NCBI RefSeq assembly: GCF_001880325.1
Contig: NZ_CP016312.1
Location: forward strand, 1,922,001 to 1,986,000
From: Thermus brockianus
Lineage (GTDB): Bacteria; Deinococcota; Deinococci; Deinococcales; Thermaceae
DNA length: 64,000 nucleotides
Direction: 5' to 3'
In this document: in pieces, positions 2,281 through 20,886 of the stretch
Layout of the letters: every line of letters starts with the position of its first letter
Numbering within the stretch: position 1 is the stretch's first letter
Program-made: the position numbers and the translations under genes
Notes under the pieces: generated by a model
What the model was told of the DNA's origin: nothing
Database searches by the model: none
Seen by the model: the letters and a program-made list of their open reading frames with translations, nothing else

Positions 2281-2810
2281 AGGGCTACAAGCGCCACCGC
2301 CTCTGCAAGGTCTGCACCCTCCCGGAGGACCTTCGCGACCGGGTGGACGCCATGCTCCTGGGGGAGGAGACGGAGGAGGACGGCAGGCCCTACAGCATGG
2401 AGGGGATCGCCCTCTGGCTCAGGGCCCAGGGGCACGAGGTGAGTCCCTCCAGCGTCCGCCGCCACGCCCGCCACCTGGCCCCTGCCTTGGATCAGGTCCT
2501 GCAGATGGAGCGCCTGGTGGAGGCGGTGGAGGAGGCCACGGGCAAGCGCCTCTCCTACGCCGCCGCCCTCGCCAACATCGTGGTGCACAAAGCTCTCCGC
2601 TACCTCCAGGACCTGGAGCTCGGGGAGGAGGTGGATCCGGAGAAGGTGGTGCGGCTCGGCCTCGAGGCCGCCCGGGTGGCCCTGAGCCTGGAGCGGCTGG
2701 ACCGCTCCCTAAGGGAGGAGGCGGCCCAGAAGGTGGAGGAGAGCCTCCGCGCCCGGCAGATTGAGCCCGAGGTCATAGAGGCCATCAAGCGGGACATCTA
2801 TGGACTCTGA
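2277..2810 (+). CDS. Mu gp27-like protein, probable small terminase subunit
   Basis: The 177-residue protein resembles the DUF3486/Mu gp27 family. An N-terminal recognition domain (residues 1-65: YKRHRLCKVCTLPEDLRDRV, then YSMEGIALWLRAQGHEVSPS with SSVRRHARHL) looks like a helix-turn-helix, and a long helical C-terminus follows. Proteins in this position act as the DNA-recognising partner of the terminase ATPase. It overlaps the terminase gene by 11 bases. The start is GTG 2277, coupled to the gene before. Confidence 0.75.
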   Translation: MKGYKRHRLCKVCTLPEDLRDRVDAMLLGEETEEDGRPYSMEGIALWLRAQGHEVSPSSVRRHARHLAPALDQVLQMERLVEAVEEATGKRLSYAAALANIVVHKALRYLQDLELGEEVDPEKVVRLGLEAARVALSLERLDRSLREEAAQKVEESLRARQIEPEVIEAIKRDIYGL

Positions 2811-4083
2811 GCGCCTCCTCCTCCCGTACCAGCGGCGCTGGGTGTGGGACCAATCCCGCTTCAAGATCGGCCTCTGGGCGAGGCAGACGGGGAAGAGCTT
2901 CGCCGGGACGCTGGAGGTGGTCCTGGACGCGGTGGAGCGCCCCGGCACCCTCTGGGTCCTCCTCTCCGCCGGCGAGCGGCAGAGCCGGGAGCTCGCGGAG
3001 AAGGCCAAGCGCCACCTCGCGGCCCTGAAGCAGGCGGCGGAGACCCTGGAGAGCCGCTTCTTTGAGGCGGGGGAGGAGGTGACCCAGCTGGAGATCCGCT
3101 TGCCCAACACGTCCAGGCTCATCTTCCTCCCCGCCAACCCCCGCACCGCCCGCGGCTACACCGGGAACGTCTTCCTGGACGAGTTCGCCTTCCACCAGGA
3201 CTCCGAGGCCATCTGGGCCGCCATGTTCCCCATCATCACGCGGAGGCCCGATCTCAAGATCAGGATCATGAGCACCCCCAACGGCCCCCGGGGCAAGTTC
3301 TACGAGCTCTGGGAGAAGGGGGGAGAGGTCTGGAGCCGGCACCGGGTCACCCTCCTGGACGCGGTGGCCGAGGGCCTGCCCATAGACCCCGAGGAGCTCC
3401 GGGCGGGCCTCGCCGACGACTTCATCTGGCAGCAGGAGTACCTCTGCGAGTTCGTCTCCGAGGAGGAGGCCTTCCTGCCCTGGACCCTCATCCTGCAGAA
3501 CGAGGCCCAGGAGGACCCCCGGGGGGAGTGGGACCCCGAGCGGGCCTACCTGGGGATGGACGTGGGGCGGCACCGGGACCTCACGGTCCTGGTGGTGCTG
3601 GAGCGGGTGGGGGACGTGTACTGGGCGCGCCTCGTGGAGGCCCTCCACCGGGCCCCCTTCGCCGAGCAGGAGGCCCGCCTCCACGCCCTCCTGCCCCGGG
3701 TGCGCCGGGCCTGCCTGGACGCCACCGGCCTGGGGGAGATGCTGGCGGAGAACGCCCGCCGCGCCTTCGGCTACAAGGTGGAGCCGGTGAAGTTCACCCC
3801 CGAGGTGAAGGCGGATCTGGCCCAGCGCCTCCGCCTCTTCTTTGAGGACCGCCGGATCCGCATCCCCGAGGACCGGGCCCTCCGGGAGGACCTCCACGCC
3901 GTGCGGCGGATCATCACCCCTTCCGGGAACGTCCGCTACGACGCGGAGAGGAGCGAGCGCGGCCACGCCGACCGCTTCTGGGCCCTGGCCCTGGCCCTGC
4001 ACGCCGCCGAAACCCGGAGGGGCCCCGTGGAGTACCGCAGCGTGGCCCGGCGGCTCTTCGCCGGCTGGAAAGGAGCCTTCTGA
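2800..4083 (+). CDS. Phage terminase large subunit (Mu gp28-like)
   Basis: This 427-residue protein is the DNA-packaging motor. The ATPase half carries a Walker A variant ARQTGKS (residues 27-33) and Walker B VFLDEF (about 125-130), followed by the coupling segment MSTPNG near residue 157. The RNase H-like nuclease half begins with the Asp-containing strand LGMDVGRHRD near residue 250, and further acidic residues occur at LDATGLGE and HADRFWALALA. Length and order fit a complete terminase. The gene overlaps its neighbours on both sides. Confidence 0.92.
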   Translation: MDSERLLLPYQRRWVWDQSRFKIGLWARQTGKSFAGTLEVVLDAVERPGTLWVLLSAGERQSRELAEKAKRHLAALKQAAETLESRFFEAGEEVTQLEIRLPNTSRLIFLPANPRTARGYTGNVFLDEFAFHQDSEAIWAAMFPIITRRPDLKIRIMSTPNGPRGKFYELWEKGGEVWSRHRVTLLDAVAEGLPIDPEELRAGLADDFIWQQEYLCEFVSEEEAFLPWTLILQNEAQEDPRGEWDPERAYLGMDVGRHRDLTVLVVLERVGDVYWARLVEALHRAPFAEQEARLHALLPRVRRACLDATGLGEMLAENARRAFGYKVEPVKFTPEVKADLAQRLRLFFEDRRIRIPEDRALREDLHAVRRIITPSGNVRYDAERSERGHADRFWALALALHAAETRRGPVEYRSVARRLFAGWKGAF

Positions 4084-5594
4084 TGCCCATCCTGGACCAG
4101 TACGGGAACCCCATCCCCAAGGAGCCCCCGGGGCAGGCCCGGGGCTTCCTCCCCCTGAACGACCCCTACCGGGTCTACCCCGCCCGGGGCCTCACCCCCG
4201 AGCGCCTGGCCCGCATTCTGCGCCAGGCGGATGAGGGGGACCTCGCCCTCCAGGCGGAGCTCTTTGAGGAGATGGAGGAGCGGGACGCCCTCCTCTTCTC
4301 CCTCCTCCAGACCCGGAAGCTGGCGGTGGTGGGGCTGGACTGGCGCTTGGAGCCCGCTGGGGAGGGCCGGGACGCCCGGCGCGTCCTGCGGGCGGTGGAG
4401 GAGGTCTTCTGGGACCTCCCCCTGGAGGACCTCATGACCGACCTCCTTTCCGCCATTCCGCAGGGGGTGAGCGTGGTGGCGGTGGCCTGGGAGTGGGATG
4501 GCCTTTTGTGGCGCCCCAAGGCCTTCCGCTGGGTCCACCCGGGCCTCTTGGTCTACCGCGCTGGAGAGGACCGCTTTTACCTGGCGGCGGGGCCCGGTCG
4601 GGAGGAGGCCTTCCCCTACGGCGGGGCTATAGAGCACCGCTACCGCGCCCGTTCGGGCCTGCCCACCCGCGCCGGGCTCATGCGGAGCCTGGCCTGGCTG
4701 TACGTCTTTAAGCACTACGCCCTGAAGGACTGGGTGATCTTCGCCGAGGTTTACGGCCAGCCGTACCGCATCGGCAAGTACGATCCCGCCGCCGGCGAGG
4801 AGGAGCGCCGCCGGCTGGAGGAGGCGGTGCGGAGCCTGGGGGCGGACGCCGCCGGGGTGATCTCCAAGGACACCGAGATAGAGATCCTCGAGGCCGCCAA
4901 GGGCCAGGGGCCCGAGGTCTACGAGCGCCTCATTCGCCTGGCCAACCGGGAGATGACCCAGGCGGTGCTGGGACAGACCCTCACCTCCTCGGAGGGGGAA
5001 GGGGGGAGCTACGCCCTGGCCAAGGTGCACGAGCGGGTGCGGATAGACCTCCTAAAGGCGGACGCCCGGGCCCTGGCCCGCACCTTGCGGGAGGGGCTTC
5101 TCAAGCCCTTCGTGGCCTTCAACTTCGGCCCCGAGCTCCTGGACCTCGCCCCCCTCGTGGTGCCCGAGGTGGAGGAGGAGAAGGATCTGGAGAGCCGGGC
5201 CCGGGTGCTCCAGACCCTCCTGGGCATGGGCCTCTCCATCCCCGAGGCCTGGCTCCGGGAGGAGTTCGGCGTCCCCGCCCCCGACCCCCAGGGCCCCGTC
5301 CTCACCCCCCTCCTCGCCCCCCAGGAGAGAAAAGAGCGGGGCCTGGTGGCGGGCCAGGCCTTCGTGGACGGCCTGGGGGATAGGCTCCTAGAAAAGGCCC
5401 CTATGCCCGGGCTTCCCGCCCTCCTCCAGGCCATCGGGGAGGCCGAGGGGTACGAGGACCTGAGGCGGCGCCTCCTCGCTCTCTTCCCCGGGATCTCCTT
5501 CGCCGAGCTCGCCCAGCTCCTGGAGGCCGCCCTCACCCTCTCCGAGCTCGCGGGGAGATGGGCCCAGCGGCAGGACAGTGGCCTGGACGGTTGA
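4083..5594 (+). CDS. Phage portal protein (Mu gp29-like, DUF935)
   Basis: The 503-residue protein matches the DUF935/Mu gp29 portal family in position, length and sequence style. Typical elements include LLQTRKLAVVGLDWRLEPAG near residues 75-95, FRWVHPGLLVYRAGEDRFYL near 150, and the helical segment FKHYALKDWVIFAEVYGQPY near 210-230. Portals form the dodecameric ring through which terminase drives DNA. The start ATG overlaps the terminase stop. The gene appears intact. Confidence 0.88.
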   Translation: MPILDQYGNPIPKEPPGQARGFLPLNDPYRVYPARGLTPERLARILRQADEGDLALQAELFEEMEERDALLFSLLQTRKLAVVGLDWRLEPAGEGRDARRVLRAVEEVFWDLPLEDLMTDLLSAIPQGVSVVAVAWEWDGLLWRPKAFRWVHPGLLVYRAGEDRFYLAAGPGREEAFPYGGAIEHRYRARSGLPTRAGLMRSLAWLYVFKHYALKDWVIFAEVYGQPYRIGKYDPAAGEEERRRLEEAVRSLGADAAGVISKDTEIEILEAAKGQGPEVYERLIRLANREMTQAVLGQTLTSSEGEGGSYALAKVHERVRIDLLKADARALARTLREGLLKPFVAFNFGPELLDLAPLVVPEVEEEKDLESRARVLQTLLGMGLSIPEAWLREEFGVPAPDPQGPVLTPLLAPQERKERGLVAGQAFVDGLGDRLLEKAPMPGLPALLQAIGEAEGYEDLRRRLLALFPGISFAELAQLLEAALTLSELAGRWAQRQDSGLDG

Positions 5595-6768
5595 GCCCGA
5601 CCCCCTGCGGCCCGAGGAGGCCCTCCGCTGGTTCCGGGCCCGCCTTCCCCTCCCCGATCCCGAGTTCCGCGCCCTGGGGGAGGAGGCGAGGCGCCGGGCC
5701 TTCTTCGTGGCGGGCCTCGCCGCGCTGGACATGGTGCAGGAGACGATGGACGCCCTCGCCCGGGCCCTGGAAGAGGGGAGGCCCTTTGAGGACTTCCAAA
5801 GGGAGCTTTCCGACCGGGTCAAGAACGCCTGGGGCGAGGGGAGCCGCCACCGCCTGGAGACCGTCTTCCGCACCAACCTCCAGCTGGCCTACGGGGCGGG
5901 GCGGTGGAAGGAGGCGGTCTCCGCCCGGGAGCTCAGGCCCTACTGGGGCCTCTCCGTGGTCCTGGACGGGCGCACCTCAAAGATCTGCCGGCCCCTCGCG
6001 GGGATCGTCCTCCCCGCCGACCACCCGTTCTGGCGCACCCACGTCCCGCCCCTCCACCACAACTGCCGCACCGCCCTGGTCACCTACACCCGGGAGGAAG
6101 GGGAGAGGCGGGCCTGGAAGGAGCCCCCTCCCCACGAGCCCCAGGCGGGCTTCGGCCGCCCCCCCACGGCGGAGGAGTGGAGCCCCGACCCCCGGGACTA
6201 CCACCCTGAGCTCTGGCGGGCCTTCCTGCGGGCCCTCGCCGCCCTCCCCGAGGCCCGGGCCCACCTCAGGGGCCTGGCGGAGAGCCGGGGCCAGGGGAGG
6301 CCCGCCCCTCGGGACTGGCTCTTCGCCGCCGGGGAGATGGTGCGGGCCCCCTTCAACCGCCGGGGGCGCTCCGTTCCCGAGGAGCTGAGGCCCCTTCTCG
6401 GCCGGGAGCGGGCCACCAGCCTGGAGCTCCACGTGGCCCAGCGGGTCATGGACGGGCACCTGGCCCCGGGCACCCCTCCCGAGGTCTACGAGGGCCTGTG
6501 CCGCGAGGCCCCGGCCCACCCCGAGGCCGCCCTCTTCGCCTACGCCCGGGACCAGGGCCCGGTGCTGGCCGCCCTGGCCCCCGCCTCCTTCATCCCCGAG
6601 GAGGCCCGGGGGCCCAGGCTCAAGGCCCTCTGGTTCGTGGTATACTCCTTCCACAGCGGGACGCTGGCCACCGGCTACAGCGTGCGGGACCTGAGCGAGC
6701 TGGACGTCCCTTGGGACAAGGTGGTATGGCTCAAAAGACCTCCCTGGCTTACGCCCCCCTCGCCCTAG
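5578..6768 (+). CDS. Mu F-like minor head protein (SPP1 gp7 family)
   Basis: This 396-residue protein has the phage Mu protein F / SPP1 gp7 core between residues 88 and 172: RHRLETVFRTNLQLAYGAGR, then LDGRTSKICRPLAG, then VPPLHHNCRTALV. The conserved Asp-Arg-Thr and Cys/His residues of that family are present. Members are minor head proteins acting in capsid assembly or DNA ejection. Residues 180-396 are a C-terminal extension that I do not recognise. In Mu the next genes encode G, protease, scaffold and capsid; here only one small gene follows. Confidence 0.85.
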   Translation: MAWTVEPDPLRPEEALRWFRARLPLPDPEFRALGEEARRRAFFVAGLAALDMVQETMDALARALEEGRPFEDFQRELSDRVKNAWGEGSRHRLETVFRTNLQLAYGAGRWKEAVSARELRPYWGLSVVLDGRTSKICRPLAGIVLPADHPFWRTHVPPLHHNCRTALVTYTREEGERRAWKEPPPHEPQAGFGRPPTAEEWSPDPRDYHPELWRAFLRALAALPEARAHLRGLAESRGQGRPAPRDWLFAAGEMVRAPFNRRGRSVPEELRPLLGRERATSLELHVAQRVMDGHLAPGTPPEVYEGLCREAPAHPEAALFAYARDQGPVLAALAPASFIPEEARGPRLKALWFVVYSFHSGTLATGYSVRDLSELDVPWDKVVWLKRPPWLTPPSP

Positions 6769-7070: not shown

Positions 7071-7296
7071 CCGCCATCCCCGATTTGAAAGCGCTTACAC
7101 GGCCCTGTAACCCCCCTGGAAGGCCCGGGAAGGGGGTGGCCTGGCCTTCCCCCTTAGCCCCGGCCTCCCCCCGCCTTTTTGGGCCTTTCAGGCCGGGTTT
7201 CCTCCCTCCTGTGCACAGCGTCTTTCCCTCTCCGGGAGGGCGCTCAGGCGGGTTTCTGTCCTGGAGCGTGAGCGATTTCCTCAATGCTTTCGCCTG
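7071..7296. other. Non-coding stretch between packaging operon and rnpB
   Basis: About 225 bases without a convincing gene. A possible ORF reading into rnpB has no ribosome-binding site and poor composition. The stretch holds several short GC inverted repeats around 7115-7200 and ends in the rnpB promoter. In related Mu-like phages the capsid, protease, sheath and tube genes would begin here. Confidence 0.6.
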
Positions 7297-7310
7297 TGGT
7301 AGAATAGGGG
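7277..7310 (+). promoter_or_regulatory. Promoter of the prophage rnpB
   Basis: An extended -10 motif TGGTAGAAT occupies 7297-7305, and the mature 5' end of the RNA lies about 6 bases downstream. The -35 region is weak. It differs from the promoter of the broken chromosomal rnpB (-10 TAAACT), so the prophage gene did not simply bring along the same promoter. Confidence 0.65.
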
Positions 7311-7687
7311 TGCCCCGGGACGGGGGCGCGGTCGCGCCCGGGGGCCAACCCCCTTGGGTGAGGAAAGTCCGGGCACCATAGGGCAGGGTGCCAGCTAACG
7401 GCTGGGCGGGGTAACCCGACGGAAAGTGCCACAGAGAAAAGACCGCCAGCGGCCGGGCCTAACGGTCCGGTGCGGGCAAGGGTGAAACGGTGGGGTAAGA
7501 GCCCACCGCCTGGCCTGGCAACAGGCTGGGGCACGGCAAACCCCACCCGGTGCAAGGCCCAGTAGGCAGGAAGGGCTTGCCCGGCCCGCCAGAACCTGCG
7601 GGATGGGCCGCTTGAGGCCACGGGCGACCGTGGTCCCAGAGAGATGACCGCGGAAAACAGAACCCGGCTTACGCCCCGTCCCGGGGT
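7311..7687 (+). ncRNA. rnpB: RNase P RNA, complete, carried by the prophage
   Basis: All landmarks of bacterial type A RNase P RNA are present. A 13-bp P1 helix forms between 7313-7325 and 7674-7686. The universal 5' core GAGGAAAGTCCGGGC begins at about 7361 and pairs in P4 with the 3' core ACAGAACCCGGCTTA near 7657. The L15 region carries a GGCAA-type motif, and the long Thermus-type GC helices are intact. The sequence differs at about a dozen positions from the truncated chromosomal copy at 20169-20365, so it is not a recent duplicate of it. RNase P with this RNA would mature the 5' ends of tRNAs. No terminator separates it from the methyltransferase gene 20 bases downstream, so they probably share a transcript. 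Confidence 0.95.
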
Positions 7688-7707: not shown

Positions 7708-9396
7708 ATGGAGAAGCGGCTTTATTTCGGAGACAACCTCGAGGTCCTGCGGAAGCACATCCCCGACGAAAGTGTGGACCTCATCTACTTGGACCCTCCC
7801 TTCAACTCCAAGGCGGACTACAACGTCATTTTCCGCGAGCATACGGGCAAGGGCCCCGGGGCCCAGATCAAGGCCTTTGAGGACACCTGGAGCTGGGGGA
7901 TGGAGAGCGAGCAGGCCCTCCAGGAGGTGGTGGCTAAGCACGGGAGACTTGGGGAGTTCTTGGACTTCCTGGTGCGCTTCCTCGGGAAGAATGACCTCTC
8001 CGCCTATCTGGTGATGATGGCGGTGCGCCTTTTGGAGCTTCACCGGGTGCTCAAGCCCACGGGGAGCCTCTACCTCCACTGCGACCCCACTGCGAGCCAC
8101 TACCTGAAGGTCATCCTGGACCAGATATTCGGGCCCAAGAACTTTCGCAACGAGGTTGTTTGGAAGCGCACGAGTGCCCATAGCTCTGCCAAGAGGTGGG
8201 GGCCGGTGCACGATACGCTCCTGTTTTATACCAAGGGAGAGGAGTACACCTGGAATGTCGTCTACGAAAACTATGAAGAACGGTACATGGAAGACGAATA
8301 CGACTATCAAGACGCCAAGGGTAGATATGCCCTTAAGGATTTGACGGGGGCAGGAGCCAGCAAGGGCGACTCGGGGAAGCCCTGGCGGGGGATAGATCCT
8401 GGGGTAAAAAATCGTCACTGGGCTGTGCCCTCCAAGGATAAGCTCCCTTCGTGGCTTACCCCCCCGGATGACTGGGACGACCTTCCCGTGCAGGAGCGGT
8501 TAGACTTCCTGGACCGGGAGGGGTTGATTTACTGGCCTTCGCGTGGGGTCATGCCCCGCTTCAAGAAGTACCTGGACACCGCCAAGGGGGTTCCCATTCG
8601 GGATGTCGTCACCGACATCCCCCCCTTGGGCCACCACTCCAAGGAACGTCTTGGCTACCCCACCCAGAAGCCCCTCGTTCTCCTGGAGCGTATCATCCAG
8701 GCCAGTTCCAACCCCGGGGACGTGGTCTTGGATCCCTTCTGCGGGTGCGGCACAGCCCTCGCCGCCGCCGAGAAGCTGGGGCGCAGATGGATAGGCATAG
8801 ACATCACCCACCTGGCCATTACCCTCATCCAGGCGCGGCTGAGGCGGGACTTCGGCCTGGAGCCGGGGAGGGACTACGAGGTTCTTGGGACGCCCAAGGA
8901 CGTGGAGAGCGCCCGTTTTCTCTTTGAGAAAGACCCCCACCAATTTCAGCTCTGGGCTCTGGGCCTGATCGGGGCTCAGCCGTACGGGGACCCGCAAAAG
9001 GGAAAGAAGGGCAAGGACACGGGCATAGACGGCTTCCTCTACTTCCGCACCCCGGACGGGGGTAGGCTGGAGAAGGTCGTGGTCCAGGTCAAGGGGGGGA
9101 AGCGCCTGGGGCCCAGCGTGGTGAGGGACCTGCGGGGCGTGATGGAGCGGGAGAAGGCGGCCTTCGGGGTTCTCATCGTCCTGGAGGCCCCCACGCAAGG
9201 CATGCGGGAGGAGGCCGCGAAGGCGGGTGTCTATTCCTGGGGGAGCCAGTCCTACCCCAGGCTCCAGATCCTTACCGTGGAAGAGCTCCTCGCCGGAAAG
9301 CGCCCTGAGTTTCCCGCGGGAAGCCTCAACGTGAGCTACGAGCGCAAGGAAGTGCGGACGGCACGGCCAAAGGGGGGGATGGAGCCTTTGCTTTAG
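7708..9396 (+). CDS. DNA methyltransferase with C-terminal nuclease-like domain
   Basis: This 562-residue protein starts at ATG 7708 after GGGGGGAGG. The methyltransferase part has the catalytic motif DPPF (residues 29-32, in DLIYLDPPFNS) and the AdoMet motif DPFCGCGTALAA near residue 341 followed by GRRWIGIDIT. This order, catalytic motif first, is the beta group typical of type III Mod enzymes. Residues 410-545 add a restriction-endonuclease-like domain with GIDGFLYF and a QVKGGK strand, a PD-(D/E)XK/Mrr pattern. The middle (8200-8350) is richer in A/T than its surroundings, which suggests foreign origin. It lies in the rnpB cassette and may protect phage DNA or act as a fused restriction-modification enzyme. 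Confidence 0.85.
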   Translation: MEKRLYFGDNLEVLRKHIPDESVDLIYLDPPFNSKADYNVIFREHTGKGPGAQIKAFEDTWSWGMESEQALQEVVAKHGRLGEFLDFLVRFLGKNDLSAYLVMMAVRLLELHRVLKPTGSLYLHCDPTASHYLKVILDQIFGPKNFRNEVVWKRTSAHSSAKRWGPVHDTLLFYTKGEEYTWNVVYENYEERYMEDEYDYQDAKGRYALKDLTGAGASKGDSGKPWRGIDPGVKNRHWAVPSKDKLPSWLTPPDDWDDLPVQERLDFLDREGLIYWPSRGVMPRFKKYLDTAKGVPIRDVVTDIPPLGHHSKERLGYPTQKPLVLLERIIQASSNPGDVVLDPFCGCGTALAAAEKLGRRWIGIDITHLAITLIQARLRRDFGLEPGRDYEVLGTPKDVESARFLFEKDPHQFQLWALGLIGAQPYGDPQKGKKGKDTGIDGFLYFRTPDGGRLEKVVVQVKGGKRLGPSVVRDLRGVMEREKAAFGVLIVLEAPTQGMREEAAKAGVYSWGSQSYPRLQILTVEELLAGKRPEFPAGSLNVSYERKEVRTARPKGGMEPLL

Positions 9397-9495: not shown

Positions 9496-10128
9496 ATGCG
9501 CGTCCTCTGGCCTTTGCCCCCATCTCCCGAAAAGAACCGCGTGGACGCGGGCTTTTTGGACCCGCGCTACCCCGAGTGGCGGAAGGCCCAGGGCCTCGCC
9601 CCTCACCAGCACCCCGGGGTGGACCTTAACCTCTCCGGCTCCTCCGGGGACGCCGACCTGGGCTACCCCGTGGTGGCCGTGGCTGAGGGGCGGGTGGTCC
9701 ACAGCGCCTTCCACCGGGTTTGGGGCAACGTGGTCCTGCTGGAGCACGACCTCCCCGGCCTCGGGCGCTTCTGGACCCAGTACGCCCACCTCCTCTTCCG
9801 GGTGGCCCGGGAGGGGGACTACCTCTTCGCGGGCGAGCCCGTGGGGGCCATCGGCAAGGGGGACCCGGCCAGGCCGTACCTCGCCCACCTCCACTTTGAG
9901 GTGCGGCGGGCGCCCCTGGAGGCCGACTTCTGGCCCGGGAGCAACGTGGACCTCATCCGGGAGAAGTACCTGGACCCCGAGGCCTTCCTAAAGGCTCACT
10001 ACGCCCCCGCCCGCCGCTTCTACCGGGTGCGGGGGGTCTTCTGGACCCCGGCCCGGCAGGAGGTGGAGGGCGTGGTCGTGAACCTGGAGGAACCCGACCG
10101 GGTTCAGGTGGCGGTGAGGAAGCTGTGA
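9496..10128 (+). CDS. M23-family metallopeptidase (phage)
   Basis: The 210-residue protein contains the LytM/M23 zinc site: H39 and D43 in HPGVD, and HLH near residues 131-133. The beta-rich stretch between them contains GYPVVAVAEGRVVHSAFH. These enzymes cut peptide cross-bridges of peptidoglycan. There is no signal peptide. It opens the tail operon and overlaps the tape-measure gene by 4 bases, so a tail-associated lysin that opens the wall during infection is more likely than a lysis endolysin. The last 45 residues are unrecognised. Confidence 0.85.
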   Translation: MRVLWPLPPSPEKNRVDAGFLDPRYPEWRKAQGLAPHQHPGVDLNLSGSSGDADLGYPVVAVAEGRVVHSAFHRVWGNVVLLEHDLPGLGRFWTQYAHLLFRVAREGDYLFAGEPVGAIGKGDPARPYLAHLHFEVRRAPLEADFWPGSNVDLIREKYLDPEAFLKAHYAPARRFYRVRGVFWTPARQEVEGVVVNLEEPDRVQVAVRKL

Positions 10129-12941
10129 ACGCCCTGTTCAGGTTGCAACTGCTGTTGGACTTGACGGACCGCGTCTCCAACCCCCTGGGCCGGGTGGGGG
10201 AGGGGCTGCGCCGGGTGGAGGAGCTTTCCCGCCGGGCGGACCTCGCCCTGCAACGCTTGGGGGCGGGCCTTTCCGTGGCCGGGGCCGGGGCGGCCCTCGC
10301 CGCGCCCCTGGTCCTCGCCACCCGGGCGGCGATGGACTTTGAGGACGCCTTCGCCGACGTGCGCAAGGTGGTGGACGCCCCCGCCCCCGCCCTCATGGCC
10401 CTCCAGCGGGAGCTTTTGGGCCTCACCCGGGTCATCCCCATGACCGCCAGGGAGCTCACGGAGATCGCCGCCGCCGCGGGCCAGGCGGGCATCCCCATGC
10501 AGGAGCTGGTCCGCTTTACCCAGGACGCGGCCCGGGTGGGGGTGGCCTTCGGCATCTCCGCGGGCCAGGCGGGAGACGCCCTGGCCAAGCTCCGCAACGT
10601 CCTGGAGCTCAGCCAGGAGGGGGTCATGCGCTTGGCGGACGCCGTGAACCACCTCTCCAACAACATGGCGGCCACCGCCCCGGAGATCCTGGAGGTCCTC
10701 CGCCGGGTAGGGGGGACGGGGAAGCTCCTGGGCCTCACCGGGCAGCAGGTGGCGGCCTTCTCCGCGAGCCTCCTCGCCCTCGGCACCGCCCCCGAGGTGG
10801 CCGCCACCGGCCTCAACGCCCTCTTCCAGCGCCTGGCCACCGCTCACGTCCAGCCCAAGGCTTTTCAGGAAGCCTTGGCCCGCCTGGGGCTCACGGCCAC
10901 GGGCCTCCAGCAGGCCCTGAGGCGGGACGCCGCCGGGGCCATCATGGACTTCCTACGCCGCCTCAGGGCGGTGCCCGACCAGCTCACCGTGCTTTCCGAC
11001 CTCTTCGGTATGGAGTACGCCGACGACATCGCCAAGCTGGTGGGCTCCTTGGGCACCCTGGAGAAGGCCTTCAGCCTGGTGCGAAGTCCGGCCGCCTACA
11101 CGGGGAGCGTCCTCGCCGAGTTCCAGAACCGCTCCGCCACCCTGAGGAACCAGCTCATCCTGCTCCGGAACGCCCTGGAGCGCATCTGGATCACCCTCGG
11201 CAACGCCCTCCTGCCCGTGGTGACCCCGGTGGTGGCCCGCCTCGCCGACCTCCTGAACCGCGTCTCCGACCTCCTGGACCGCTTCCCCCTCCTCCGGGGG
11301 GCCCTCGTGGCCGTCACGGCCACCCTCGGGGGGCTTCTGGTAGTGGGCGGCTTCCTGGTCACGGGGCTCGCCGCCCTGGGCTTCGCCGCCACTCAGGCCC
11401 GGCTGGGCCTCCTCGCCCTCCAAAGCGGCCTCGCCGGCGCCCTCAGGCAGGCGCGCCTCCTCTCCCTGGGCCTCGCCCTCCTGCGGGGGGAGATGGCCCG
11501 GCTGGGGGCGGTGGGGCTCCTCCGGGGGGCCTTCGGCCTCCTCGCCCAGGGGGCCTTCCGGGCCGGGCAGGCGGTGCTCTTCCTGGGGCGGGCCCTCCTC
11601 CTCAACCCGGTGGGGCTGGTCCTCGGCGCCCTCGCCGGGCTCGTCTACCTCTTCCGCCAGGCCTGGGGGGCGAGCGAGAGCTTCCGCAAGAGCGTTCTCG
11701 GCACCCTCCAGGCGGTGCGGAGCGCCTTCGCCCCGGTCCTCGCCGAGTTCCGGGGCCTGGGGGAGGCTCTGGCCGGGCTCTTCCGCCCCCTCGGGGGGGC
11801 CATCCAGGCCTCCCTGGCCTCCGCCCAGGCCGCCTGGGACCGCTTCGGCTACGCCCTGGGGTATGGCATCGGCTTCCTCTTCGGCCTCCTGGAAGCCCTC
11901 GTCGTCCGCCTCGCCCCCATCTTCGCCGACGGCCTCGCGGGCCTCATCCGCATCCTGCGGGGCTTCGTGGACCTGGTGGTGGGCCTCTTCACCCTGGACC
12001 TGGACCGGGCCCGCCAGGGGGCCTTGCGGGTGTGGGAGGGGCTCCGGGCTGTCCTCTCCGTGCCCATCCGGGTGGGGGGCGTTCTGGTGGATACCGCCCT
12101 CAACGCCCTGGCCCGCCTCTGGCAGGTGGCCAGCGAGCGCTTTCCCGCCCTGGCCCGGCTGGGAGAGGGGTTGGGGGCCGCTTGGCGGGGCCTGGTGACG
12201 GGGGCCGAGGCGGTCTTCCGGCTCCTCCAGACCGTGGTCCTCTCCGGCATCGGGGCCCTGCGGGCCCTCCTCCAGGGGGATTTCCGCCTGGCCCTGGCCT
12301 TTGCCGAGAGGGGGTGGCAGGCTCTCAAGGCCCTGCTCTCCTTGCCCCTGCGCCTGGGGGGCGTGGTCTGGGACGCCCTAAAGGCGGCCTTGGGCCAGGC
12401 CCTGGCCTTCGTGCGGGGGCTGGTGGGCTCCTTCCTGGAGGCGGGCAAGGCCATCGTCCAGGGGCTCACCCAAGGCATCCTCAGCCTGGCGGCGGCCCCG
12501 GTGAATGCCGTCAGGGATCTGGGGGGGAAGGCAATTACCACGCTCCGGAACCTTCTGGGGATGCGCTCCCCCAGCCGGGTCTTCGCCGAGATCGGTGCCA
12601 TGACCGCCCTGGGGATGGCCGTGGGCCTGCAGGGGGCGGCCCCCGAGGTGGCCCGGGCGGTGCAGGCCCTGGTGCCCCCGGTACCGCAGTTGCTGGAGCT
12701 TCCCGTCTTGCGCCCTGCGGTGGAGATGCCGGAGCTGCCGCCTTTGGGGGCCCTGGTGCCCCCTTCCCCTGTGGCCCCCGTGCCCGGCCAGGCTCAGGGC
12801 AGGGGAGAGGGCCGCAAAGCGGAGGGCAGGGTGGTCCAGGTGGTGCGCATCGAGCGCCTGGAACTCCCCTCCGTGCGGGATGCGGACGAGTTCCTCGGGG
12901 CCCTGAAGCGCCTCATGCTGCCCTATCTGGAGGAGGTCTGA
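10125..12941 (+). CDS. Tail tape measure protein
   Basis: This 938-residue protein is the longest of the prophage and begins at GTG 10125. Residues 70-300 correspond to the TP901-type tape measure core (FEDAFADVRKVVDA, then MTARELTEIAAAAGQAGIPM and VGGTGKLLGLTGQQVAAFSA). Hydrophobic stretches lie around 385-420 and 475-505, and an alpha-helical Ala/Leu/Arg-rich region runs to about 800. The C-terminus is Pro-rich and ends in a conserved basic/hydrophobic tail. The length sets tail length, so a tail of roughly 140 nm would be expected from the usual ~1.5 A per residue. Confidence 0.9.
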   Translation: MNALFRLQLLLDLTDRVSNPLGRVGEGLRRVEELSRRADLALQRLGAGLSVAGAGAALAAPLVLATRAAMDFEDAFADVRKVVDAPAPALMALQRELLGLTRVIPMTARELTEIAAAAGQAGIPMQELVRFTQDAARVGVAFGISAGQAGDALAKLRNVLELSQEGVMRLADAVNHLSNNMAATAPEILEVLRRVGGTGKLLGLTGQQVAAFSASLLALGTAPEVAATGLNALFQRLATAHVQPKAFQEALARLGLTATGLQQALRRDAAGAIMDFLRRLRAVPDQLTVLSDLFGMEYADDIAKLVGSLGTLEKAFSLVRSPAAYTGSVLAEFQNRSATLRNQLILLRNALERIWITLGNALLPVVTPVVARLADLLNRVSDLLDRFPLLRGALVAVTATLGGLLVVGGFLVTGLAALGFAATQARLGLLALQSGLAGALRQARLLSLGLALLRGEMARLGAVGLLRGAFGLLAQGAFRAGQAVLFLGRALLLNPVGLVLGALAGLVYLFRQAWGASESFRKSVLGTLQAVRSAFAPVLAEFRGLGEALAGLFRPLGGAIQASLASAQAAWDRFGYALGYGIGFLFGLLEALVVRLAPIFADGLAGLIRILRGFVDLVVGLFTLDLDRARQGALRVWEGLRAVLSVPIRVGGVLVDTALNALARLWQVASERFPALARLGEGLGAAWRGLVTGAEAVFRLLQTVVLSGIGALRALLQGDFRLALAFAERGWQALKALLSLPLRLGGVVWDALKAALGQALAFVRGLVGSFLEAGKAIVQGLTQGILSLAAAPVNAVRDLGGKAITTLRNLLGMRSPSRVFAEIGAMTALGMAVGLQGAAPEVARAVQALVPPVPQLLELPVLRPAVEMPELPPLGALVPPSPVAPVPGQAQGRGEGRKAEGRVVQVVRIERLELPSVRDADEFLGALKRLMLPYLEEV

Positions 12942-14908: not shown

Positions 14909-15271
14909 GTGTACCGGGACTGGCTTTTTGAGGACGGTGACTTCCGCTTCACCCCCAGGGGGGATGCGGCCCTGGTGGAGGGCCTCCAGGTGGTGCGTCA
15001 GGACCTCCTCGCCCGCCTCGTCTCCCCCCGGGGGAGCCACTGGGCCTTCCCCCATGAGGGAAGCGCCCTCCCCGACTACGTGCAGGCGGCCCTGGACGAG
15101 CTCACCCGAGTGGAGGTCCTGCAGGAAGCGGAGCGGACCTGCCTCGAGGACGCCCGGGTGGAGGAGGCCCGGGGGGAGTGGACGGAAGGAGGCCTCCGCC
15201 TCGCCTTGCGCCTCTCGGGGGAGGCCCTTAGGCTCCTCCTCCCCTGGCCCTTGGAGGTGAAGGGTGCCTGA
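14909..15271 (+). CDS. Baseplate wedge protein (gp25 / W-like)
   Basis: This 120-residue protein starts at GTG 14909. The opening YRDWLFEDGDFRFTPRGDAA, followed by VVRQDLLARLVSPRGSHWAF, matches the style of T4 gp25/P2 W/Mu gp46 proteins, which initiate the baseplate wedge. It lies between spike and J genes as in other contractile-tailed phages and overlaps the J gene by 8 bases. Confidence 0.82.
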   Translation: MYRDWLFEDGDFRFTPRGDAALVEGLQVVRQDLLARLVSPRGSHWAFPHEGSALPDYVQAALDELTRVEVLQEAERTCLEDARVEEARGEWTEGGLRLALRLSGEALRLLLPWPLEVKGA

Positions 15272-16298
15272 GCTTCCCCCTCTCCCCACCCTGGAGGAGG
15301 AGACCCAGAGGCTCCTCGGCTTCCTCCCCGAGGGCTTCCCCGTGCGGAACCCCGACAGTTTCAGCGCCTTCGGCACCTACCTGCGCCTCGCGGCCCAAGC
15401 GGCCCTCGAGGCCCGCGCCTTCACCCGGGAGCTCGTCCCCCAGCTCTTTGTGATCACCGCCACCGGCGCCTGGCTGGATGAGCACGCCAAGGGCCTGGGC
15501 CTCGCCCGCAAGGAGGCCCGGGGGGCCAGGCTCCGCTGCCGCGTCCTCGCCTCCGCTCCCGGCACCTTCCCCCCCGGGGCCCTCCTGGGGGTGGGGGAAC
15601 TCCGCTACCGGGCCGAGGGTCCCTTCGCCCCGGACGCCCTCGTGGAGGTCTGGAGCGAGGGCGTGGGGAGCCGCTACAACCTCCCCCCGGGGACCCGCCT
15701 CCTCCCCGTTACCGTGGTGGGGGGCCTCGAGGCCCTGGAGGTGGAGGAGGTCCTGGAGCCCGGCTTGGACCGGGAGACGGACGAGGAGCTCCGGGCCCGC
15801 CTCATTCTCGCCTGGCCCGCCCTGGGCCGGGGGAGCACCTACCACGCCTACATGAGCTGGGCCCTGGAGGACCCCGAGGTGCGGAAGGTCCAGGTCATAG
15901 ACGACCACCCCCGGGGCCAGGGCACCGTGGACGTGGTCATAGCCCCCGCCCGGGGCCTCCCTTCCCCCGAGCTCCTCGCCCGGGTCCAGAGGGTGGTGGA
16001 CGAGCGGCGGCCCCTCACCGTGAACGCCCTGGTGCGCTCCCCCAGCCCCCGGCCCCTGGACCTCGCCCTGCGCCTGCACCGCCTCCCGGGAAGCCCCTCC
16101 CTCGAGGCCTGGCGGGGCTTCGCCCTGGATTTCCTGAACGGGCTAAACATCGGGGAGACCTTCTGGCCCTCCCGCCTCATGGACCACCTGCACGACCGGG
16201 GAGGCCTCGAGGCGGTGGAGGTCCTGGCCCCCGCGGGACCTGTGGCCGTGGCCCGGGACGAGCTCATCGTCCCCGGGGAGGTGACGGTCTATGAGTGA
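15264..16298 (+). CDS. Baseplate J-like protein
   Basis: The 344-residue protein has the hallmarks of the baseplate J family (Mu gp47, P2 J). These include RELVPQLFVITATGAWLDEH followed by KGLGLAR near residues 55-85, GSRYNLPPGTRL near 140, and the core EVLEPGLDRETDEELRARLI near 160-180. It builds the periphery of the baseplate that triggers sheath contraction. It overlaps both neighbours. Confidence 0.9.
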   Translation: MPELPPLPTLEEETQRLLGFLPEGFPVRNPDSFSAFGTYLRLAAQAALEARAFTRELVPQLFVITATGAWLDEHAKGLGLARKEARGARLRCRVLASAPGTFPPGALLGVGELRYRAEGPFAPDALVEVWSEGVGSRYNLPPGTRLLPVTVVGGLEALEVEEVLEPGLDRETDEELRARLILAWPALGRGSTYHAYMSWALEDPEVRKVQVIDDHPRGQGTVDVVIAPARGLPSPELLARVQRVVDERRPLTVNALVRSPSPRPLDLALRLHRLPGSPSLEAWRGFALDFLNGLNIGETFWPSRLMDHLHDRGGLEAVEVLAPAGPVAVARDELIVPGEVTVYE

Positions 16299-20011: not shown

Positions 20012-20038
20012 AGGGTCGGGGCATGGAGCCCCGGCCCT
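20012..20038 (+). terminator. GC hairpin after the variable protein gene
   Basis: An 11-bp stem (20012-20022 with 20028-20038, one T-G pair) has an ATGGA loop and lies 15 bases after the stop codon. It is followed only by CTACTTTA, a poor U-tract. It may be the late-operon terminator or the stem-loop that DGRs place just downstream of the variable region. Confidence 0.6.
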
Positions 20039-20041
20039 GCT

Positions 20042-20168
20042 ACTTTACATGATAACGCTCATGTTCCGTGCGCATAAACGCTCACCTTACGAACCTCAAA
20101 ATGACCGAACTCAGTCAAACTGCACTAAAAAGATGACTGAAATTGACCTCGAAGCGTGACGCGTGACA
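20042..20168. mobile_element. Prophage right end (attR-type terminus)
   Basis: This A/T-richer non-coding end finishes with CA at 20167-20168; read inward it starts TGTCACGCGTCACGC, the TG...CA style of Mu-family transposons. It contains direct repeats suitable as transposase sites: AACGCTCA at 20054 and 20077, ATGACCGAA at 20101 and ATGACTGAA at 20133, and a tandem GCGTGAC at 20154-20167. The junction with rnpB follows immediately. Confidence 0.8.
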
Positions 20169-20365
20169 GTGGGCTCTTACCCCACCGTTTCACCCTTACC
20201 CGCACCGGGCCTTGGGCCCGGCCGCTGGCGGTCTCTTTTCTGTGGCACTTTCCGTCGGGTTACCCCGCCCAGCCGTTAGCTGGCACCCTGCCCTATGGTG
20301 CCCGGACTTTCCTCACCCAAGGGGGTTTGGCCCCTTGAGCGCGACCGCACCCCTGTCCCGGGGCA
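20169..20365 (-). pseudogene. rnpB: Chromosomal RNase P RNA gene, 5' half only, cut by the prophage
   Basis: On the minus strand the RNA starts near 20365 and contains the P1 5' strand, the core GAGGAAAGTCCGGGC and the helices up to GGTAAGAGCCCAC. Phage DNA replaces the rest after 20169. It lines up with the first ~200 nt of the prophage copy with about a dozen differences and a 1-2 base indel. Without the 3' half (P1 and P4 partner strands, P15-P17) it cannot form an active ribozyme. Its promoter is intact. Confidence 0.95.
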
Positions 20366-20592: not shown

Positions 20593-20670
20593 GCCTTGCT
20601 TTAAGGGCGGGCGGGCCCTAAACTAGGAAGCGGTTTTCGCACGGCCAAGACCGTGCGGGAGGAGGCGAGC

Positions 20671-20886
20671 GTGAAAGAGGGCATTCATCCCAAGCTGGTT
20701 CCCGCCCGCATCATCTGCGGGTGCGGCAACGTGATCCACACCTACTCCACCAAACCCGAGATCCACGTGGAAGTGTGCAGCAAGTGCCACCCCTTCTACA
20801 CGGGCCAGCAGCGCTTCGTGGACACCGAGGGGCGGGTGGAGCGCTTCCAACGGCGCTTTGGCGATTCCTACCGCAAGGGGCGTTAG
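20671..20886 (+). CDS. rpmE: Ribosomal protein bL31
   Basis: The 71-residue product ([20 protein letters not shown] and onward) is the zinc-binding type of bL31, with Cys residues in CGC and CSKCH. The protein bridges the ribosomal subunits. The start is GTG 20671, preceded by GGAGGAGG; an upstream in-frame GTG would add residues not found in the family. A terminator follows directly, so the gene is monocistronic. Confidence 0.97.

Follow-up and report, generated by a model that had tools for sequence, protein, structure and literature searches.

A Mu-like prophage of Thermus brockianus lies within rnpB, carries an intact rnpB, and shares an oriented address upstream of mraZ with its Meiothermus relatives

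The window analyzed here, a stretch of 64,000 nucleotides of the Thermus brockianus genome (G000:C1:1922001-1986000; genome of 2.39 Mb in three contigs), opens inside a Mu-like prophage of 34,522 bp (G000:C1:1907647-1942168), both junctions of which were read and whose ends are TG...CA. The right 20.2 kb of the element occupies positions 1 to 20168 on the forward strand, as assigned from both junctions, the TG...CA ends, the target duplication, and a Mu-like gene set; the left 14.35 kb lies outside the window. At the right junction, which reads GCGTGACA|GTGGGCTCTTACC, the phage DNA ends with GTGACA (20163 to 20168, forward strand; the GACA end recurs in relatives), and rnpB, the chromosomal gene for RNase P RNA, continues from 20169 on the minus strand. 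Only the promoter-proximal ~197 nt of this gene are present there (20169 to 20365, minus strand); they are 93.9% identical to a phage-borne rnpB over 198 alignment columns, and the alignment stops at the junction. The gene for ribosomal protein L31, the divergent chromosomal neighbor of rnpB, follows at 20653 to 20886 on the forward strand (from the open reading frame listing; L31 is a flank of related prophages in PMC4605624). At the left boundary, the order is rnpB terminator, rnpB 3′ half, GGCGGTGGG, and then TGTAATAGAGCG, with the junction reading GGCGGTGGG|TGTAATAGAGCG. The 5-bp target duplication GTGGG is found at 20169 to 20173 and again at C1:1907642-1907646, and when the element and one GTGGG copy were removed in silico, the flanks joined as a continuous rnpB with its terminator. 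A sequence-only reading of the window had placed the right junction at this position, had recognized the truncated rnpB, and had predicted both the 3′ half of the gene in minus orientation and the GTGGG copy at the left end, all of which were found. An assembly artifact was rejected, as rnpB insertions with differing junctions are present in six Thermus genomes and in two IMG/VR contigs (G055 and G061, whose left junctions adjoin the 3′ part of the chromosomal gene).

The element has the appearance of a complete Mu-like phage, encoding a CI/S24-type repressor, MuA and MuB homologues, Mu gp27, terminase, a Mu-type portal (Portal_Mu), Mu F, a protease, and major head, sheath, tape measure, and baseplate J proteins. 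The MuA-type transposase (phrog_310, E = 1.4e-44) gives an rve domain match just under the cutoff and an integrase-core fold match, and its invariant residues D237, D313, and E349 are present; the MuB-type ATPase matches phrog_296 (E = 6.3e-40). On the forward strand of the window lie the genes for the Mu gp27-like terminase small subunit (2277 to 2810; PF11985, phrog_426), the terminase large subunit (2800 to 4083; PF03237, PF17289), the portal protein (4083 to 5594; PF06074, E = 9.4e-101), the Mu F-like head protein (5578 to 6768; PF04233), a DNA methyltransferase with an Mrr-type domain, carried as cargo beside rnpB (7708 to 9396; PF01555, PF04471), the tail tape measure protein (10125 to 12941; phrog_28, PF10145), and the baseplate J-like protein (15264 to 16298; PF04865). 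The phage-borne rnpB sits between the Mu F and methyltransferase genes, in a cargo slot of the late region that varies among relatives (a methyltransferase, a pair matching PDC-M19A/B, or an L31 gene), with rnpB as its constant member. The pair matching the candidate defense models PDC-M19A (DUF488) and PDC-M19B stands behind rnpB in several relatives (G010, L043 13800-15132 region; L049; L055). In the IMG/VR Thermus phage G050 (L114, reverse complement; L115), the L31 gene directly follows rnpB; since L31 is the chromosomal neighbor of rnpB, the phages apparently acquire genes from either flank of the landing site.

Three matches to the bacterial RNase P RNA class A model (RF00010; gathering score, 100) were found in the whole genome, two of them halves of the chromosomal gene and one the intact copy in the prophage. 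The intact copy, which the sequence-only reading had put at 7311 to 7687, matches the model over its full length (positions 1 to 367) at 7316 to 7687 on the forward strand with 272.2 bits; it is the only full-length RNase P RNA gene of the genome and lies 12.5 kb inside the element from the broken chromosomal copy. The 3′ fragment of the latter matches at C1:1907513-1907595 (minus strand) and was extended at the sequence level to C1:1907465-1907646, where it abuts the left end of the element. The match to the 5′ remnant (20013 to 20360, 114.9 bits) overstates what is left of the gene, as the 3′ half of the model is aligned to unrelated phage DNA. No second intact chromosomal rnpB was found, and the genome encodes an RNase P protein. 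A protein-only RNase P was considered as a bypass and rejected: the best match in the genome, the sole one, was partial and below the cutoff at 19.8 bits. Given the RNase P protein, the lack of a detected protein-only enzyme, and a single intact rnpB that lies in the prophage, the phage copy very probably sustains the lysogen, which would be expected to die if it lost the prophage.

The phage rnpB is presumably expressed and functional in the lysogen. A likely −10 element, TAGAAT (7300 to 7305, forward strand), is conserved ahead of almost every phage-borne rnpB, where the host gene has its −10 element; a strict consensus promoter scan of this upstream region found no promoter, so that the assignment rests on conservation. 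Full-model scores of the phage copies (254.6 to 274.1 bits) overlap those of intact copies from uninserted Thermus genomes (261.4 to 286.1 bits). When 11 phage copies were aligned with 5 host copies, 20 of the 116 predicted pairs showed compensatory double changes, three of them in one helix whose changes are confined to the phage lineage of G000 and G022; only the phage copy of the G000 type has the helix CCACGG/CCGTGG. Among the phage copies, at least five lineages can be distinguished, which lie close to different hosts (the G010 phage copy is 98.1% identical to the chromosomal rnpB of G000, that of G050 97.6% to G013, and that of G054 96.5% to G005), which indicates that rnpB has passed more than once between hosts and phages, by capture or by swapping. 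The repeat CTGTCCTGGAGCGTGA, of the type found at the phage ends, also occurs inside the element at 7256 to 7271 (forward strand), ~45 bp ahead of the phage rnpB; its motif is that of the repeats which stand at element positions 127 and 267 in the left end. This internal copy is kept before most phage rnpB copies and is perhaps regulatory, or perhaps the leftover of an earlier right end.

The same MuA was present in 6 of 27 Thermus genomes, and these six (among them T. tenuipuniceus [G023], Thermus sp. 2.9 [G024], and a T. brockianus genome [G010]) are the ones with a broken chromosomal rnpB and one intact, phage-borne rnpB. All six prophages have identical orientation. Every Thermus insertion parts the conserved 5′ stretch GAGGAAAGTCC of rnpB from the 3′ stretch ACAGAACCCGG, which we take to be the two sides of the P4 core of RNase P RNA; their positions are as seen here. 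Perfect 5-bp duplications were found in four Thermus genomes, and since all four differ (GTGGG, TCCAG, GTTAT, and TCTGG) and lie at four positions, the insertions are to be read as independent. In the other two (G010 and G011), the ends of the element do not match each other and these elements look rearranged; the chromosomal rnpB of G010 lacks its 3′ part. The elements of G000 and G023 are 99.0% identical over 33.35 kb and occupy different sites, in hosts whose flanks are only 78.9% identical, which indicates that the phage moves between Thermus species. Seven IMG/VR records carry the phage rnpB at the same place in the element (one is cut off by the contig end), and in one further IMG/VR phage (G056) the slot is present without rnpB while part of the rnpB upstream region remains. 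Ten records of the phage collection showed similarity to rnpB; the three that were inspected (H1, H4, and H6) consist of bacterial chromosomal DNA at that place. MW495066.1, MT835553.1, and CAKLQF020000022.1 are filed as phages, and their rnpB-bearing stretches are bacterial chromosomal DNA.

Relatives of the phage (MuA 41 to 47% identical) lie between rnpB and mraZ in Meiothermus and a sister genus, in the same orientation. In the Meiothermus lysogens, rnpB is single and intact, and a search for a phage-borne rnpB in the Meiothermus phages found none. Phages inside rnpB thus bring their own rnpB, and those beside it are without a copy of their own. From the left end of the element to the mraZ ATG, the distances are 369, 358, 283, 236, 224, and 178 bp in Thermus, 324, 255, 250, 214, 210, 183, and 181 bp in the Meiothermus group, and 396 bp in G028, a landing zone of 178 to 396 bp upstream of mraZ that spreads over ~220 bp and is used in one orientation. 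In the one genome without an rnpB match (G045), the contig starts in the left end of a phage 183 bp from mraZ. The right end lies 98 to 164 bp beyond the rnpB 3′ end in Meiothermus and 544 bp beyond it in G028, but inside rnpB in Thermus. In uninserted Thermus genomes, rnpB ends 182 to 189 bp from mraZ (14 of 15 measured genomes), so that its 3′ half falls in the landing zone; in Meiothermus, rnpB is further away. A GTGGGA-type repeat array, which resembles the MraZ boxes of other bacteria, lies ~91 to 151 bp from the mraZ ATG in all; insertions begin 29 bp outside the array and none lies within it. TG...CA ends and a 5-bp duplication were found in G000, G022, G023, G024, G027, G028, G043, and G048. 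All but one of the prophages with readable context lie in rnpB or between rnpB and mraZ in the single orientation. The exception, a relative in G027 with the duplication TTGCG, sits in a gene resembling a nitroreductase (named from its translation only), and targeting is therefore not absolute.

Phage Mu and the Mu-like phages (saltoviruses) insert almost anywhere and serve as the standard example of near-random insertion. The elements described here resemble them in the MuA with its D, D, and E residues, the MuB-type ATPase, the TG...CA ends, the 5-bp duplication, Mu gp27, the portal, and Mu F, but differ in using one address and one orientation and in bringing a complete essential host gene as cargo; near-random insertion in both orientations, a trait of Mu-like phages, was not observed. 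MuB-type ATPases choose the targets in Mu and in Tn7-like systems. Tn7 itself, with a transposase and an AAA+ ATPase, inserts downstream of glmS at the fixed point attTn7 in one orientation, makes a 5-bp duplication, and spares the gene. The Thermus phage likewise has one address, one orientation, a 5-bp duplication, and a transposase with an AAA+ ATPase; unlike Tn7, the phages spread over ~220 bp and destroy rnpB in Thermus. A search for TniQ gave no match in G000 and none in the control genomes either. Integrase-type prophages in tRNA genes or icd also compensate damage to a host gene, but they rebuild it at the junction through att-site homology, whereas the Thermus element holds a whole second gene 12.5 kb within.

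We consider it quite probable, taking the account as a whole, that a temperate Mu-like phage is aimed in fixed orientation at an address upstream of mraZ and that the phage rnpB replaces the gene which is thereby broken in Thermus. Lysogenic insertion would be directed to the DNA just upstream of the MraZ-box-like array; at this address in Thermus lies the 3′ half of rnpB, so that insertion would destroy an essential gene, and the late region of the phage would supply a complete rnpB with its own promoter and hence RNase P RNA for the lysogen. A MuB-type ATPase recruited near mraZ would give a one-sided insertion zone with one orientation. The target appears to be the region upstream of mraZ, since the Meiothermus phages share address and orientation but leave rnpB alone, and no rnpB of their own was detected. 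Location and orientation would then follow from target choice and not only from selection; the breaking of rnpB would be a side effect in Thermus, compensated by the phage, and the resulting lock-in a by-product. The rescue or addiction strategy proposed by the sequence-only reading holds in part. Rescue is well supported by the comparison, the only chromosomal rnpB being broken, the only intact copy lying in the same element, and five further Thermus genomes being alike; addiction aimed at rnpB is disfavored by the Meiothermus phages. We counted against the main account the G027 site, the G056 phage without rnpB, the mismatched ends of G010 and G011, and the outcome of the strict promoter scan.

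Host MraZ bound to its boxes is a candidate recruiter, because one clade of Meiothermus phages (G031, G033, G044, G046, and IMG/VR G063 and G065) encodes an MraZ homologue after MuB; the link is weak, as the Thermus phages lack such a homologue. Tn7-like targeting of this kind, in which host MraZ on the mraZ boxes recruits the transposition complex in one orientation, one Meiothermus clade encodes its own MraZ, and the Thermus phages captured the rnpB of the landing zone so that a lysogen of any Thermus species could survive the insertion, is a speculative extension that we regard as rather doubtful. The phage MraZ homologue (PF02381, 99.4 bits; L078, reverse complement 12222-12641) is ~48 to 50% identical to the adjoining host MraZ.

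Other explanations account for parts of these data. Insertion might be random, with only insertions in rnpB persisting because loss of the prophage is lethal; the broken chromosomal gene and sole intact phage copy in all six Thermus lysogens fit such a strong form of addiction, but it accounts neither for Meiothermus phages at the same address with rnpB intact nor for the single orientation, and the near-identical elements of G000 and G023 are too recent for slow loss to have emptied other sites, which makes it very unlikely. Alternatively, rnpB itself, as DNA or RNA, might be the target, for example if a protein, or the rnpB transcript of the phage itself, guided the homing. All Thermus insertions do lie in rnpB or its terminator, and the Thermus phages carry a homologous rnpB; nevertheless, the distance to mraZ is similar in all lysogens while that to the rnpB 3′ end is not, and the search of the Meiothermus phages turned up no rnpB. 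The distances measured in Meiothermus and G028 thus disfavor rnpB as the anchor, and we hold this reading to be improbable.

Selection after near-random insertion could also be invoked if the gap upstream of mraZ, in this orientation, were one of few tolerated places, and insertions do avoid the MraZ-box array and the mraZ start. We think this equally improbable: a 2-Mb chromosome offers many tolerated sites, the G027 lysogen is viable with its prophage elsewhere while nearly all others fall within ~220 bp, and the place is no safe gap in Thermus, as an essential gene is hit there. A passenger role for the phage rnpB, with RNase P RNA provided in trans by the two chromosomal halves (both present in G000), is scarcely credible, as the 3′ half has no promoter, this part of the gene is missing from G010, and the phage copies keep a full-length structure with compensatory changes.

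In the open literature, most subscription papers being outside the coverage, no paper on rnpB as a phage insertion site was found, and on rnpB or mraZ as phage targets only PMC4605624 was relevant. It reports that prophages of T. aquaticus Y51MC23 and Thermus sp. 2.9 (the G024 genome) share the identical flanks mraZ and L31; its text mentions neither rnpB nor RNase P, and the broken gene and phage copy went unnoticed. For the Pseudomonas Mu-like phage Ab30, a motif 55 to 61 bp away makes hotspots, which take 5% of events without orientation bias (PMC5977238). What is new here is that the phages share an oriented address upstream of mraZ: a clade of transposable phages uses one address and orientation and brings a complete replacement where an essential RNA gene overlaps it. 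The finding opens target choice by MuA/MuB-type machines to testing, provides a clean natural comparison between insertion inside rnpB with a phage copy and beside it without one, and presents a case in which the only RNase P RNA of a bacterium appears to be viral.

Further observations concern the landing zone and the element ends. Meiothermus hypogaeus (G033) carries two different relatives on contigs G033:C68 and G033:C89 (L071 to L074); rnpB is the flank on one contig and mraZ on the other, and one address thus seems to be hit repeatedly. In one Thermus genome (L020), the gap between rnpB and mraZ is 771 bp instead of the usual ~185 bp and has GTGG motifs ~61 bp apart, perhaps a repeat array. 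Short tandem duplications were seen at the left terminus of several elements: TGTAATGGAGCGCGCTTGT occurs twice in G010 (L042 near 11857) and TGTAAGCGAGCATGC... twice in G055 (L123 near 115), and the left end of G011 (L046) has one as well.
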